Shown here: positions 1 to 22,431 of the stretch, in pieces
How positions within the stretch are numbered: the first letter of the stretch is position 1
Layout of the letters: the number at the start of each line of letters is the position of its first letter
Assembly (NCBI GenBank): GCA_020847515.1
Contig: JADLBW010000047.1
Coordinates: 1 to 32,315 of the forward strand
DNA length: 32,315 nucleotides
Direction of reading: 5' to 3'
Source: Pirellulales bacterium
Lineage (GTDB): Bacteria; Planctomycetota; Planctomycetia; Pirellulales; Lacipirellulaceae
Notes under the pieces: model-generated
What the model was told of the DNA's origin: nothing
What the model saw: the letters and a program-made list of their open reading frames with translations, nothing else
Databases searched by the model: none
Translations under genes and position numbers: made by a program

Positions 1-327
1 ATCGGCACAGACCAACCAGTCGCAAAAGCCTCCCGACCCCTTTCCCCAACCCTCAAACAAATCATCGCCCTCACCGCCCGCTACTTCGGCGTCACCCAAG
101 CGGCCCTCGCCGGTCCCTCGCGCCGCAGCTCGCTGGTCCAGGCCCGCAACATCGTGGTTCATCTCGCTCGCCGCCTGACGGATCTCAGCTACGCCGACAT
201 CGGCCGCGGCCTGGGCGGTCGCGACCACACCACCGTGATGCATGCCGACCGCCGCGTCGCCGACCTGCTGGACCGCGACCCGACGACGCAACAGGCCGTG
301 GAAGAGCTCGATCGGCTGCTGCGTTAG
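1..327 (+). CDS. dnaA: Chromosomal replication initiator DnaA, C-terminal part (5' end outside window)
   Basis: The reading frame is open from base 1 to a TAG at 325-327 and gives the last 108 residues of DnaA. Domain IV, the helix-turn-helix domain that binds DnaA boxes, is complete: the segment TARYFGV, the basic stretch SRRSSLVQARN, and the family signature GGRDHTTVMHA at about residues 73-83 of the fragment. DnaA binds the origin, oligomerises and opens it for helicase loading. The AAA+ domain lies upstream of the window. The first 20 or so residues belong to the variable linker between domains III and IV. Bases 16-42 of this linker closely match an arm of an intergenic palindrome at 22335-22431, which is unusual for an essential gene. 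dnaN follows on the same strand after 535 bp. Confidence 0.97.
   Translation: MGTDQPVAKASRPLSPTLKQIIALTARYFGVTQAALAGPSRRSSLVQARNIVVHLARRLTDLSYADIGRGLGGRDHTTVMHADRRVADLLDRDPTTQQAVEELDRLLR
16..42 (+). repeat. Copy of a dispersed palindrome arm inside the dnaA coding sequence
   Basis: Bases 16-42 match the reverse complement of 22344-22370 at 25 of 27 positions by direct counting. Bases 16-40 also match the other arm, 22396-22420, at 22 of 25. The copy is read in frame as part of the DnaA domain III-IV linker (about PVAKASRPLSP). The partner arm, if it exists, would lie before base 1 and cannot be seen. Confidence 0.65.
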
Positions 328-862
328 CCGTTGCGACCCGCGCAGCCCTGGGGGATAAACCGTCAAAAACGCGTCGACAATTACCGCGATCGAACTAGTC
401 GGACAACAGCCATCACCGCGTCCCCGAAAACGCCTCCCACGATCGACGCCGGCCCAACAGCCAACCAACGCCCTGTCAACGAGTTATCCCCCTTGCCGCA
501 AGCGACGTATCAACCATGCAATGAATGCCTTAGCACTATAGATCGATCGCTATCGACAGTCGTCGGCGTCGCTCTTCTGTTACTACTACCAAAGAAGAAT
601 TTATATAGGGCCGAACACGCCCGCCGCCGCTCGCCATGACGTCCATCCTCGCCGCCGACAATTCCTGCAACCAGCAATTCTCCTATCCCTCGCTTGGATG
701 CGGAGAGATAGGGAGGGTTGAAGAAGTGCATACTCGCTACCGCCCCCAGCTCTCCTGATCGGAGCTGGGACCGCTGACCGTACAGCAACGCGCTGCTAAG
801 CGACCACCCATCCGCCGCCAATACGCAAAGCACATATCGTTTCCCATACAGGTCTCACCTCT
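328..862. other. dnaA-dnaN intergenic region, weak oriC candidate
   Basis: This 535 bp gap has no convincing gene; the short open frames in it lack family features. The 9-mer TTATCCCCC, which resembles a DnaA box (TTATCCACA), occurs twice: on + at 484-492 and on - at 350-358. At 580-590 the + strand reads TTACTACTACC, so the - strand carries TAG-TAG-TAA, similar to the DnaA-trio element of bacterial unwinding regions. It is followed by an AT-rich run, AAAGAAGAATTTATATAGG, at 591-609. Bacterial origins often sit beside dnaA. The boxes are imperfect and few, and the trio is about 90 bp from the nearer box, so this is only a candidate. Confidence 0.3.
745..769. promoter_or_regulatory. Hairpin in the dnaN upstream region
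   Basis: CCCAGCTC (745-752) and GAGCTGGG (762-769) form a perfect 8 bp stem with a 9-nt loop, about 93 bp before the dnaN start. No T-run follows, so it is not a classical terminator. It could be a dyad operator or a 5' leader structure; function unknown. Confidence 0.35.
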
Positions 863-1978
863 ATGAAAATCTCTTGCGATCGCGAACAGCTTCTCCAAGC
901 CTTCCAGACCGTCGCCGCCGTCGCCCCGGCCCGCAGCCCCAAGCCGATCCTGCAGAACGTCAAGCTCGACGTTGCCGATGACGGCGCCTATCTCACCGCG
1001 ACCGATCTGGAAATCGGCATTCGTCACGCCGTCGCCGGCGTCGATGTGCAGGCCCCCGGCTCCGTCGTCTTGCCGGTCACCCGCTTCGGTTCGATCCTTC
1101 GTGAAAGCACCGACCAGTCGCTTCAAATCGAATCGGACGGCAGCGGCGCCACGATTCGCGGCGAACGAAGCAAGTTTCAGCTCCCCGCCGAAAACCCCGC
1201 TGAGTTCCCCTCGGTTCAGGGCTTCGCCGAAACGGCCTACTTCGAGGCCCCGGCTCGATTGCTCCGCGAGCTCATACGCCGCACCGTCTTTGCCACCGAC
1301 AACGAATCGAGCCGCTACGCCCTCGGCGGCGTGAAGCTCGAGTTCGAGGGCTCGCAAATCACCGCCGTCGGCACCGACGGCCGCCGCCTGGCCCGCATGG
1401 TCGGCCCGATCGCCAGCCAGGGGGAACCGGCCGCCATCCAGCAGAACACGATCGTCCCCACCCGCGCGATGCAGCTCATCGAGCGGGCCGTCGCCCCGCA
1501 GGACGCCGAGGTGCAGCTTGCCGTCCGCGGCAACGAGTTTCTGGTCCACAGCCCGCGGGCGACGATCTCGGCCCGCTTGCTCGAAGGCCGCTTCCCCGAT
1601 TGGCGTAAGGTCTTCCCCGAACGGGGCGCCGGCACGCAGATCGAGCTCGCCGCCGGCCCCACCTATGCGGCGGTCCGCCAGGCGGCGATCGTCACCAGCG
1701 AAGAGAGCCGCGGCATCGACTTTACCTTCGGCGACGGCACGCTGGTGCTCGCCGGCCAGGCCGCCGACGTCGGCCAGTCGCGGGTGGAGCTGCCGATCGG
1801 CTACGACGGCCAGGAGATCACGATCACGCTCGATCCGCGATTCGTCATCGACTTCTTGAAGGTCCTCGACGCCGAGAAGACCTTCACGATCGAGCTCCGC
1901 GACGGCGAGAGCGCAGCCGTCTGCACCACCGACGACGGCTACGGCTACGTCATCATGCCGCTGGCGCGGGATCGATAA
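863..1978 (+). CDS. dnaN: DNA polymerase III subunit beta (sliding clamp)
   Basis: This gene encodes a 371-residue beta clamp, the usual length for the family. The clamp dimerises around DNA and tethers the replicative polymerase and other partners. The N-terminus MKISCDREQLLQAFQ and early motif PILQNVKLDV are typical, as is GGVKLEF at the start of the second domain. TDGRRLARM in domain II contributes to the partner-binding groove. The protein ends in YVIMPLARDR, matching the conserved hydrophobic C-terminus (usually IMPMRL) that lines that groove. The ATG at 863 has only a weak AGGT (850-853) upstream as a possible ribosome site. It lies between dnaA and dciA on the same strand, and a large palindrome follows 11 bp after its stop. 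Confidence 0.98.
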   Translation: MKISCDREQLLQAFQTVAAVAPARSPKPILQNVKLDVADDGAYLTATDLEIGIRHAVAGVDVQAPGSVVLPVTRFGSILRESTDQSLQIESDGSGATIRGERSKFQLPAENPAEFPSVQGFAETAYFEAPARLLRELIRRTVFATDNESSRYALGGVKLEFEGSQITAVGTDGRRLARMVGPIASQGEPAAIQQNTIVPTRAMQLIERAVAPQDAEVQLAVRGNEFLVHSPRATISARLLEGRFPDWRKVFPERGAGTQIELAAGPTYAAVRQAAIVTSEESRGIDFTFGDGTLVLAGQAADVGQSRVELPIGYDGQEITITLDPRFVIDFLKVLDAEKTFTIELRDGESAAVCTTDDGYGYVIMPLARDR

Positions 1979-1989
1979 GAACCAAGCGG

Positions 1990-2123
1990 AACCATACCAG
2001 GCACGGAGGATGTAATGACCAGACCAAGCACCAATGACCAAACGAGTAACGCGTTGCTTCAATCATTGGTCATTGGTGCTTGGTCATTGGTCATTTGTAA
2101 TCCCCTCTGTGCCTGGTGTGGTT
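1990..2123. repeat. Palindrome A: 134 bp imperfect inverted repeat between dnaN and dciA
   Basis: Two nested arms are visible. The inner stem is a perfect 20 bp inverted repeat: GACCAAGCACCAATGACCAA at 2022-2041 and its complement at 2066-2085, with a 24-nt loop containing ACGCGT. The outer arms, 1990-2020 and 2089-2123, pair imperfectly and share AACCAyACCAGGCAC, then GAGG and a TGACC end. The core is made of GACCAA/TGACCAA-like heptamers. A 25-base stretch of the right arm (2068-2092) recurs exactly at 32276-32300 in the opposite orientation. This is a dispersed, probably non-autonomous element; it may also fold in the transcript ahead of dciA. Confidence 0.85.
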
Positions 2124-2126
2124 AAC

Positions 2127-2132
2127 AAAGGA
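2127..2132 (+). promoter_or_regulatory. Ribosome binding site fixing a TTG start for dciA
   Basis: AAAGGA at 2127-2132 lies 6 nt before the in-frame TTG at 2139. The longer reading with ATG at 2034 would translate through palindrome A and give an N-terminus with no family resemblance, so this site and the TTG are preferred. Confidence 0.6.
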
Positions 2133-2138
2133 CTCACA

Positions 2139-2510
2139 TTGACCGAACCCCGCTCCGACGACTGGCAGGACCTCGAGCGTCGCCGCCGCGCGCACCGGGC
2201 GTGGTTCTACGCCCGGCAGCCCAAACCCGTCAGCGAGGTGATCGCCCAGCTCGTCCAGCGTCGCGGCTATGCACAAGTCCGCGCAGCGGGTCAGTGGAAC
2301 CAGGCGTGGCAGGACGCCGCCGGCGAGCACTTCGCCCGGGTGACCGAAGTCGGCCAGCTCCGCCGCGGCGTACTGGAGGTGGTCGCCGCCAACTCGCTGG
2401 TGATGCAAGAGCTCGGCTTCGAAAAAGAGCGGATCCTCGCCGCCCTCCAAGCCGCCCGTCCCGACGCCGGCCTAAAACGACTCCGCTTCCGAATCGGCCG
2501 CATCGGGTGA
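2139..2510 (+). CDS. dciA: DUF721 domain protein, DciA-like replicative helicase loader/operator
   Basis: This is a 123-residue protein of the DUF721 family. DciA, the ancestral helicase-loading partner of DnaB, belongs to this family and replaces DnaC/DnaI in most bacterial phyla. The DUF721 core spans about residues 30-115: VSEVIAQLVQRRGY, WNQAWQDAAGEHFARVT, GVLEVVAANSLVMQELGF and a basic C-terminal strand, KRLRFRIGRIG. The start chosen is TTG at 2139, with AAAGGA 6 nt upstream; a GTG at 2118 and an ATG at 2034 are alternatives that fall inside palindrome A. Its position between dnaN and gyrB fits a replication role. The family assignment is firm; DciA function is inferred from family and context. 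Confidence 0.85.
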   Translation: MTEPRSDDWQDLERRRRAHRAWFYARQPKPVSEVIAQLVQRRGYAQVRAAGQWNQAWQDAAGEHFARVTEVGQLRRGVLEVVAANSLVMQELGFEKERILAALQAARPDAGLKRLRFRIGRIG

Positions 2511-2530
2511 ACAGTACACATACCAAACAT

Positions 2531-5318
<2,788 letters not shown>

Positions 5319-17725: not shown

Positions 17726-17831
17726 AGGCGGCCCGCCGGCGGTGTGAAATAGGCTCTTCTGCACGCGGCTTTACGAACCTCGCCGCCGGGGTCGCCGCGC
17801 CGTACAACGTCACCCGTCGAGCCTGGCCCTC

Positions 17832-19779: not shown

Positions 19780-22287
19780 ATGGATTACGCCGCAACACCC
19801 GCTCCGCCGCGCCGGATTCTTGGTCGCATGCTTCCCTGGGCCATGGCTCTAGGGCTATTTGCCGCCGGCGGATTTGGCGTCTATCGCTTCGCCGCGCCGG
19901 GGGCCGCCGCACTCGCGGCAGACGCCGCCGCGTACGAGGTCGCACCACGGGCAGCCGCCGGTCATGCTGCGCTCACGGACAAGCACGAAATTCAGCAATT
20001 ATTTTCTGCGACGCTCCCGACCGACGCCGCAACCGCCGCTTCCGACCAGCCGGTTGCCCTGGGGCGTCCAGCGGATCGCTACACCGCTCGGCTTGGCGCC
20101 GCGGTCGACGCTTCGACCGGCTCCCTAGCGGAAGGGCAAACCGCGCCTGCTCCGGCTGAAACGGCGCCCCGACCCTCCGTCGCTCCACTGAGAGAGGGGC
20201 CCGGAACCGACGCAGCAATGATGGGAGCAAATCCGCTGGTCGAGCACGTTGCGTCGCCGACCCCAGCGGCTGCTGCGCCACCGGAGGTCGAAGTGGCCCG
20301 CGGGCAAGAGCCGACCCCCGAGAACCCCCTCCGCACGGGCGTTGCAGCGGGGAGTCCGGCCGCCCGAGCTGCCTTTGCCGAGCCAGCGCCGACCGCCCAG
20401 CCCGCAGCATCGTCCGAGCCGGCTGCCGCGGCCGCTCTAGAAGGCGCCGACGCCACAGCCGCCACAGGCAACGGCGGCAATCCCTTCGCTCGATACTCGC
20501 GGGGCGCCCCTCCCGCCGCCGTATCGTCCAACCGGGACGCGGCGCCGACGGCGGCAAGCATGTTCTCTGCGGATCAGGCGGCGCCGGTAGCACAGTCGGC
20601 GGCCGGGGCCGAGCCGATCGCCGCCGACCTCGAGCCCGCGCCGGTCGAGCCAGTGCCCCAGGCTGACGCCGCCCCAGCGCGATTCGCGCCGCTGTCGGCG
20701 AAGCCCTTACGGCCGCAGGCGGCCACGGCGCCGCCAGATTCGACGGCGGTAAACGCCGCGGAGCCGCCGGCGCCCGCCACGTCCAGTGCCCTCCTAAGCG
20801 AGTCTCCCGCCGGCGCCGGGCAGTCGGTCGACGCCGCGCCGCTGGGTCCCCCCGACGCGGCCGCCCTCCCCGGCGCCGCCGCGATCGAAGGCGCGGGACG
20901 GCCAGGCGATCATTCGCTCGAAGGGCCGCAGGCGCCGACGCTGGTGATCCAAAAGCTGACGCCGGCGGAAGTCCAGGTCGGCAAGAAGTGCACCTTTGCG
21001 GTGAAAGTTCAGAACACGGGCCGCTTGGCTGCGCAGAGCGTTCAAATACACGACGAAGTCCCCCTGGGCGCTCAGTTGGTCGGTTCAGCGCCGAAGGCGA
21101 ACGTCGACGGCGCTCGGCTGACCTGGGATCTCGGCACGCTCGCCGCCGGAGAAGAGCGGATCGTCGAAATGGAGTTGATGCCCGTCGCCGAGGGCGAGCT
21201 GGGCAGCGTGGCCACCGTGACGTTCGCCGCGCAGGCGTCGGCGAAGGTTCGCTGTACGCGGCCCGAACTGGAGCTGCGCCTCTCGGCGGGGCCGCGGGTC
21301 ATGATCGGCCAGCAGCATGTCGTCGAGATCGAAATCGCCAATCCCGGCAGCGGCGATGCAAGCGGCGTCATGCTGCTGGAGAATGTGCCGGCCGGCGTGA
21401 CGCACGAGGCTGGCCCCGCTCTGGAGTTTGAAGTGGGGACGCTGAAGGCGGGCGAATCTCGGCGGCTGGATCTGGTGCTCACGGCGGCCGAAGCGGGCCG
21501 CATCAATAACGTGATGACCGCCCGCGCCGACGCCGGCCTGGAAGTGCAGGCGGGCTGCGAATTCGAGGTTGTGGCGCCCAAGCTCGCAGTGTCGGTCGAG
21601 GGTCCGTCGCGACGCTATCTCGAACGGCCGGCGACGTACACCGTGAATATTGAAAACCCCGGCACGGCCGCGGCGAAGGAGGTTCAACTCGTCACGCAGT
21701 TGCCGCCGGGACTGAAGTTCGTGAGCGCCAATAACCTGGGCGAATACGACGCGGCGACTCACAGCGTTCACTGGAGCCTGGCCGAGTTGCCGGCGAACGA
21801 ACGCGGCACGGTCGAGCTCACGGCGCTGCCCGTCGCCGCCGGCGAACATACACTGCAAATCGCCAGCCGGGCGGAACAGGGCCTGGAGGAGCGGACCGAG
21901 ACGCGGCTGTTGGTCGAAGGCATCGTCGCCTTGTCGTTCGACATCGACGCCGCCGACGGCGCCGTCGAGGTCGGCGGCGATACGGCCTTCGACGTGACGG
22001 TCGTGAACCACGGCTCGAAACCGGCCGCCAACGTGCAAGTGGTGGCCGCGATTCCCCAGGGTTTGCGGGCGATCGGCGGCCAAGGCGCGACCCGCCACGT
22101 CGTCGAAGGCGATCGCGTGGTCTTCGCTCCCGTTGCCCAACTGCCGCCCAAGGGCGAAGCGAAGTTCCGCATCCAGCTTCAGGGTCTCGCAGCGGGCGAC
22201 CAGCGGACTCGCATTATGGTGACGGCCGACGAAGTGCAGCAGCCGATCACGAAAGAAGAAAGCACCCGCGTCTACGCCGACCAATAG
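19780..22287 (+). CDS. DUF11 repeat surface protein with Ala/Pro-rich N-terminal half
   Basis: This is an 835-residue protein from ATG 19780. A single membrane anchor, MLPWAMALGLFAAGGFGVYRF, lies at about residues 17-37. Residues about 40-390 are low complexity, rich in Ala, Pro, Glu and Gly, with no folded domain visible. Residues about 395-835 hold at least four immunoglobulin-like DUF11 repeats, each with a motif like FAVKVQNTGRLAAQSVQIHD, HVVEIEIANPGSGDASGV, YTVNIENPGTAAAKEVQLV or FDVTVVNHGSKPAANVQVV. Such proteins are placed on the cell surface and used for structure or adhesion. A frame to 19615 is open but adds Arg-rich residues before the anchor, so the shorter start is preferred. A hairpin follows 3 nt after the stop. 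Confidence 0.85.
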   Translation: MDYAATPAPPRRILGRMLPWAMALGLFAAGGFGVYRFAAPGAAALAADAAAYEVAPRAAAGHAALTDKHEIQQLFSATLPTDAATAASDQPVALGRPADRYTARLGAAVDASTGSLAEGQTAPAPAETAPRPSVAPLREGPGTDAAMMGANPLVEHVASPTPAAAAPPEVEVARGQEPTPENPLRTGVAAGSPAARAAFAEPAPTAQPAASSEPAAAAALEGADATAATGNGGNPFARYSRGAPPAAVSSNRDAAPTAASMFSADQAAPVAQSAAGAEPIAADLEPAPVEPVPQADAAPARFAPLSAKPLRPQAATAPPDSTAVNAAEPPAPATSSALLSESPAGAGQSVDAAPLGPPDAAALPGAAAIEGAGRPGDHSLEGPQAPTLVIQKLTPAEVQVGKKCTFAVKVQNTGRLAAQSVQIHDEVPLGAQLVGSAPKANVDGARLTWDLGTLAAGEERIVEMELMPVAEGELGSVATVTFAAQASAKVRCTRPELELRLSAGPRVMIGQQHVVEIEIANPGSGDASGVMLLENVPAGVTHEAGPALEFEVGTLKAGESRRLDLVLTAAEAGRINNVMTARADAGLEVQAGCEFEVVAPKLAVSVEGPSRRYLERPATYTVNIENPGTAAAKEVQLVTQLPPGLKFVSANNLGEYDAATHSVHWSLAELPANERGTVELTALPVAAGEHTLQIASRAEQGLEERTETRLLVEGIVALSFDIDAADGAVEVGGDTAFDVTVVNHGSKPAANVQVVAAIPQGLRAIGGQGATRHVVEGDRVVFAPVAQLPPKGEAKFRIQLQGLAAGDQRTRIMVTADEVQQPITKEESTRVYADQ

Positions 22288-22334: not shown

Positions 22335-22431
22335 GGGACGCTCAAGGGGTCGGGATGCCTTTGCGACTGGAGAGATTGATTAGCTAAGACACCCCCCTGT
22401 CGCAAAAGCATGCCGACCCCGTCAGCGTGCA
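22335..22431. repeat. Element E: palindrome with arms also found in dnaA
   Basis: The left arm, 22346-22370 (GGGGTCGGGATGCCTTTGCG then ACTGG), is an imperfect inverted repeat of 22396-22420 (CCTGTCGCAAAAGCATGCCG then ACCCC), matching at 22 of 25 positions. Weaker pairing extends outward (AGCGT on the right, ACGCT on the left). The 25-nt spacer contains TTGATTAGCTAAGAC. The element lies between convergent genes. I recall similar GGGGTCGGGA... sequences in planctomycete genomes near transposases of the REP-associated type, but cannot check that here. Confidence 0.78.

Follow-up and report, generated by a model that had tools for sequence, protein, structure and literature searches.

Bases 1-40 of the window, the 32,315-nt stretch of planctomycete DNA analyzed here, very probably form the 3′ half of a palindromic, non-autonomous element of 75 bp that inserted into the linker of the replication initiator gene dnaA in this lineage, where its in-frame translation would lengthen DnaA by about 25 amino acids. 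A REP-associated tyrosine (Y1/HUH) transposase (RAYT) acting in trans would most likely copy the hairpin family to which the element belongs, with insertions settling chiefly just 3′ of genes. Insertions within genes would be filtered by frame and phase, surviving in flexible linkers or surface loops where the reading frame is kept (75 bp correspond to 25 codons) and a hydrophilic phase is read, and the DnaA carrying the insert presumably stays functional. The source assembly comprises 282 contigs and is 68.6% complete; its gene content is planctomycete, with PSCyt/PSD domains present. The window corresponds to contig C47 of this assembly, and the features discussed are summarized in Table 1.

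Table 1. Coordinates of the dnaA region, the two dnaA-borne arms and the complete copy in the window (window positions unless another contig is named).
Feature	Location	Strand	Evidence or remark
3′ part of hairpin element (positions 36-75 of 75) in dnaA	1..40	+	Contig ends compared; canonical arm spacing 53; rare GAGGC variant on both arms
Right arm of element	16..40	+	25/27 to complement of 22344-22370; right-arm consensus CCAGTCGCAAAAGcATCCCGACCCC
Element positions 1-26, last 26 bases of contig C236	L158 4964-4989		Partner (left) arm
3′ part of dnaA, linker end and domain IV	1..327	+	PF08299, 1.4e-23
5′ part of dnaA	Contig C236, L042 1429-2178		PF00308, 1.8e-18
dnaN, short ORF, gyrB	863..5318	+	Conserved downstream synteny tying C236 to C47
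Complete 75-bp copy, intergenic between convergent genes ending at 22287 (+) and 22468 (-)	22346..22420	.	Covariance model score 76.5 bits

The first-pass annotation had noted a palindrome arm at bases 16-42 that resembled a distant element too closely for chance. Re-measured in a scan of the window, this segment agrees with the complement of 22344-22370 in 25 of its 27 bases and with that of 22396-22422 in 23, and these are the only two places in the window that it matches with seven or fewer mismatches. Chance is excluded by the abundance of the sequence elsewhere in the same genome: a BLAST query with the first 1.5 kb of the window returned dozens of matches over about bases 16-42, a query with 22335-22431 likewise returned dozens, and a covariance model, with at most 150 candidates scored, identified at least 84 distinct full copies beyond that in dnaA, 64 of them exactly 75 bp long, so that the repeat extends well beyond dnaA and the palindrome at 22335-22431. 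The plan of the element consists of a left arm (GGGGTCGGGATKCTTTTGCGACTGG), about 25 variable bases and a right arm (CCAGTCGCAAAAGMATCCCGACCCC), with arm starts 53 apart and a total length of 75 bp; the 25-bp arms flanking the 25-nt variable loop are far better conserved than the loops themselves. Stem cells are paired in 91% of cases, versus 35-51% when the arms are slid against each other, and the region 22335-22431 folds at -49.7 kcal/mol. Compensatory stem changes showed no excess over shuffles in a covariation test, and palindromy therefore rests on the pairing fraction rather than on covariation. In 45 of the 64 copies, stem pair 12/64 has stayed mismatched, so that the two arms can be told apart. 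Copies occur by the dozen in all five congeners, traces are present in two other genera of the same family, and none were found in the other relatives searched; this is a genus-level palindrome family. With gene boundaries taken from a simple codon-usage caller, the intergenic spacers that carry copies are mostly unidirectional (40) or convergent (17), with six divergent, and the median distance of intergenic copies is 32 nt to gene 3′ ends versus 124 nt to 5′ ends.

A candidate mobilizer of the family is suggested by the sequence of one congener, G004, in which a Y1 transposase gene of RAYT type (216 aa; L204 1228-1878) has a copy on either side, one about 25 bp and the other about 95 bp away, the whole locus covering L204 1129-2047. 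The encoded protein contains a PNHWHL (HUH) motif and a tyrosine-containing FYTVCRYVERNP stretch. This bracketed locus is the only one found in the six congeneric genomes, it lies next to a subfamily variant, and neither the other congeners nor the window genome yielded a close homolog of the enzyme at their Y1 loci. The two Y1 genes detected in the window genome at its 68.6% completeness are 25-27% identical to the G004 enzyme and have no flanking copies; with no copies nearby, they were rejected as the cognate enzymes. We prefer mobilization in trans by a RAYT-like enzyme that may have been lost from, or left unassembled in, the window genome. The strongest competing explanation accepts the element in dnaA and has the family spread without a RAYT, either as a miniature inverted-repeat element (MITE) belonging to a DDE insertion sequence or through gene conversion or template switching between hairpins; we regard it as unlikely, while granting it a real share of the probability. 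A 75-bp unit with 25-bp terminal inverted repeats has a layout compatible with a MITE, but no ends of a parent insertion sequence were seen, and inspection by eye showed no clear or consistent target-site duplications at boundaries that the palindromic ends tend to blur. Conversion between copies could also yield arms conserved so much better than loops, yet the mismatch kept at stem pair 12/64 speaks against arms that convert each other freely. The lack of a cognate transposase adjoining copies in the window genome fits either version of RAYT-free spread, and the bracketed RAYT gene of G004 argues against both.

Of the 84 copies, 16 lie within genes as delimited by the codon-usage caller, or 17 counting dnaA. 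Capture of the element by dnaA, as proposed at first pass, is upheld as an event, although not as a singular one, since it is one of 17 gene-interrupting copies. The host genes include those for an HI0933-like oxidoreductase, MoeA, a UDPGP-family uridylyltransferase, an ABC ATPase, a solute-binding protein, a 3-keto-disaccharide hydrolase, UvrA and a beta-lactamase/NamZ fusion, together with a DEAD-box helicase (two copies) and an RND transporter assigned by sequence; many hosts have recognized Pfam domains, and in several of them the domain spans the insert. All 17 copies, that in dnaA included, are read in a single phase, the element starting at codon position 2 and encoding RGRD[S/A]FATG...PVAK[A/E]SRPL. 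If the three phases were equally available, the chance of a single phase would be about 3 x 3^-17 = 2e-8, or somewhat higher because a few copies are neighboring duplicates. Two copies, on contigs C14 and C161, had appeared to be out of phase, an impression that came from antisense open reading frames; the coding-strand genes put both in phase. Because stop codons occur at similar frequency across the three phases, selection against the hydrophobic or aromatic readings (GVGILLRL and GSGFFCDW) is the most likely source of the bias, whose strictness suggests selection on the encoded peptide, through which gene-internal copies would survive. In the DEAD-box RNA helicase (L096 2382-4052), the two copies lie in tandem between the AQTGTGKT ATP-binding motif and the LVLAPTREL motif. 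The UvrA of G004 (L086, ORF 1-2382, minus strand) carries a copy in a different phase (GVGTLLRLEDAIGHESPQSQKSPDP) near its zinc-finger region, unlike the UvrA insert of the window genome, and the phase rule is therefore not absolute in the genus.

Comparison with relatives, which the first-pass annotation had proposed as a check, places the dnaA insertion within this lineage: neither the five congeners nor more distant relatives have the segment in DnaA, and no comparable linker hairpin was found in the DnaA of about 25 wider relatives. Measured from the conserved "GR" to LKQI, the linker spans 31 codons in G002, G003 and G004, which do not carry the element, 41 codons in the window genome (G000), 41 in G001 and 43 in G005; three of the five congeners thus have no insert of any kind, and their linkers are 10 codons shorter than that of the window genome. 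The G001 linker was tested as a decayed ortholog of the insert and gave no support for this, its ungapped identity of 34% falling among those of shifted controls (27-36%). Since G001 reaches 41 codons with unrelated sequence, linker length alone is not proof of insertion. Orthologous sites are empty in congeners for the uridylyltransferase (UAP), MoeA and the 3-keto-disaccharide hydrolase, and the insert in the solute-binding protein is common only to the window genome and G001, its closest congener.

The linker of G005 contains a different palindrome (PLPLEGRDGEG; C13:1162-1210), a member of a second dispersed family with 33 matches in the window genome and 36 in G005, so that the same DnaA linker holds different palindrome families in two species. 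The cysteine desulfurase gene that precedes dnaA in the window genome also contains an in-frame member of the second family (L158, contig C236, 3221-3346; SLPLEGRVGEGGRSRYTGSSPLPNSLHQGEG), an insert that is absent from G001-G004. The G005 palindrome and the very stable stem of the element could be taken to mean that a hairpin is kept in dnaA for a function, either mRNA cleavage or attenuation that sets how much DnaA is made or a cruciform close to the origin. This is improbable, given that three congeners have neither an insert nor strong hairpins in their linkers and that the family also occupies 16 unrelated gene-internal sites.

The structure of the dnaA copy itself was reconstructed from the ends of two contigs. 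Base 1 of the window is the end of contig C47 and lies inside the element, and the partner arm, which the first-pass annotation had recommended seeking upstream of this base, was found as the last 26 bases of contig C236 (GGGGTCGGGAGGCGTTTGCGCCTGGC), ending the DnaA AAA+ open reading frame. The earlier description of an arm in dnaA therefore holds for the palindrome match but not for a lone arm, the whole 75-bp element being involved with its other arm at the end of C236. Both dnaA arms carry GAGGC at element positions 9-13, a variant seen elsewhere in only 1 of 84 left arms and 1 of 84 right arms. Canonical spacing leaves 9 nt (element positions 27-35) in the C236-C47 assembly gap; this join is predicted in both length and sequence, as no read or assembly spans the gap. 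With these 9 nt the dnaA frame would be kept (250 codons, plus 3, plus window codon 1), and the predicted in-frame translation across the element reads ...RGREAFAPG-3 residues in the gap-IGTDQPVAKASRP... In the C236 fragment the Pfam domain Bac_DnaA stops at residue 182, and in the window fragment Bac_DnaA_C begins at residue 19; the insert follows the former and precedes the latter, which places it in the linker between domains III and IV, in agreement with the location assigned at first pass. The gene order cysteine desulfurase-dnaA-dnaN-short ORF-gyrB is kept in G007 and, within the reach of their contigs, in G001-G005.

Contig ends in this assembly coincide with copies elsewhere: C134 and C116 have copies at 3-29 and 12-86, respectively, and C45, 17828 nt long, ends 9 nt past a copy at 17744-17819, which suggests that the hairpin breaks the assembly at such ends. 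The position of the match at a contig end, together with those of C134, C116 and C45, could also mean that the window start is an assembly artifact, a contig end extended into a repeat foreign to dnaA. Such an artifact is very improbable, because an open, in-phase frame runs up to the break from either side, each half of dnaA ends in an arm complementary to the other and bearing the same private variant, amid conserved synteny, and 16 other in-gene copies stand in the same phase inside contigs; an assembly-breaking hairpin explains the contig end itself. That the family arose in dnaA and was then exported, the other origin entertained at first pass, has nothing in its favor except the sequence match and is virtually discounted, since the congeners carry dozens of copies genome-wide and none in dnaA, and the rarity of GAGGC in the family makes the dnaA copy look derived, not ancestral. 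The proposal of a REP-like element captured in frame is borne out instead by the linker insert, the 84 or more other copies and the absence from the DnaA of congeners.

The element is a new family of the known REP/Rickettsia palindromic element kind. Rickettsia palindromic elements (Ogata et al. 2000), as outlined in later reviews, are palindromes that interrupt many conserved but mutually unrelated genes in frame and encode a conserved peptide there, with additional intergenic copies (PMC2229807, PMC10969869). By that description the present element is alike in lying in frame in unrelated genes, in its conserved peptide and phase, in its empty orthologous sites and in its intergenic copies; it differs in its length of 75 bp versus about 105-150 bp, in its phylum, in the bracketed RAYT of at least one congener and in the copy in dnaA. 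REPs of the GTAG and CGTC superfamilies (Di Nocera 2013) form hairpins near gene 3′ ends with a preference for unidirectional and convergent spacers, some are intragenic in many bacteria, including in uvrA and RNA helicase genes, and RAYT genes are flanked by copies (PMC3733652). The present element is likewise mostly extragenic, close to 3′ ends and preferentially in convergent and unidirectional spacers, but it has no conserved GTAG or CGTC tag, its arms beginning with GGGGTCGGGA and finishing with GACTGG, and it consists of a single long stem of 25 bp, capped by a 25-nt loop, in place of a 20-40 bp REP or a REP dimer. The G004 Y1_Tnp gene with its HUH motif between two copies resembles a RAYT/REPtron (TnpA-REP, IS200/IS605 relatives), although a single such locus was found in the six congeneric genomes and no copies surround the two Y1 genes of the window genome. 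MITEs such as ERIC and Correia/NEMIS are similarly short, end in inverted repeats, encode nothing themselves and occasionally form in-frame fusions; neither a target-site duplication nor a parent DDE element was identified for the present element. DnaA is unmentioned in the main text of the REP survey (PMC3733652), and a text search of the literature turned up no palindromic element described in dnaA. The new aspects are the initiator as host gene, the counted phase rule and the repeated use of one DnaA linker.

Protein-coding palindromes are best known from Rickettsia, and the element extends the phenomenon to a planctomycete lineage with several assets: congeners with clean empty sites, a phase bias and, in a sister species, a candidate transposase. 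A copy in the replication initiator makes tolerance of an insert testable in an essential and well-understood protein, and the element accounts for the assembly break in dnaA, a reminder that such hairpins can split conserved genes in fragmented assemblies. A broader proposal, to which we give slightly less than even credence, is that this RAYT-linked family may act as a de facto protein-linker module across the genome, one that genes tolerate almost exclusively in a single hydrophilic phase and that has entered the linkers of core machines (DnaA, UvrA, RNA helicase, MoeA), with the DnaA linker as a recurrent landing site for two unrelated palindrome families in two species.

Some observations concern the dnaA locus more generally. 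Replication origins are often located in the dnaA-dnaN spacer; in the window (328-862), this spacer contains no DnaA-box-like site (TTWTNCACA, at most one mismatch). A search of genome contigs with the DnaA C-terminus returned only distant matches, mainly to actinobacterial DnaAs. The window genome also encodes a second full-length DnaA-like protein of 513 aa (L041 988-2529, contig C231), with an AAA+ score of 152 bits versus 68 bits for the dnaN-linked DnaA, and a comparable second DnaA-like gene, of roughly 450-640 aa, is present in most of the relatives searched.
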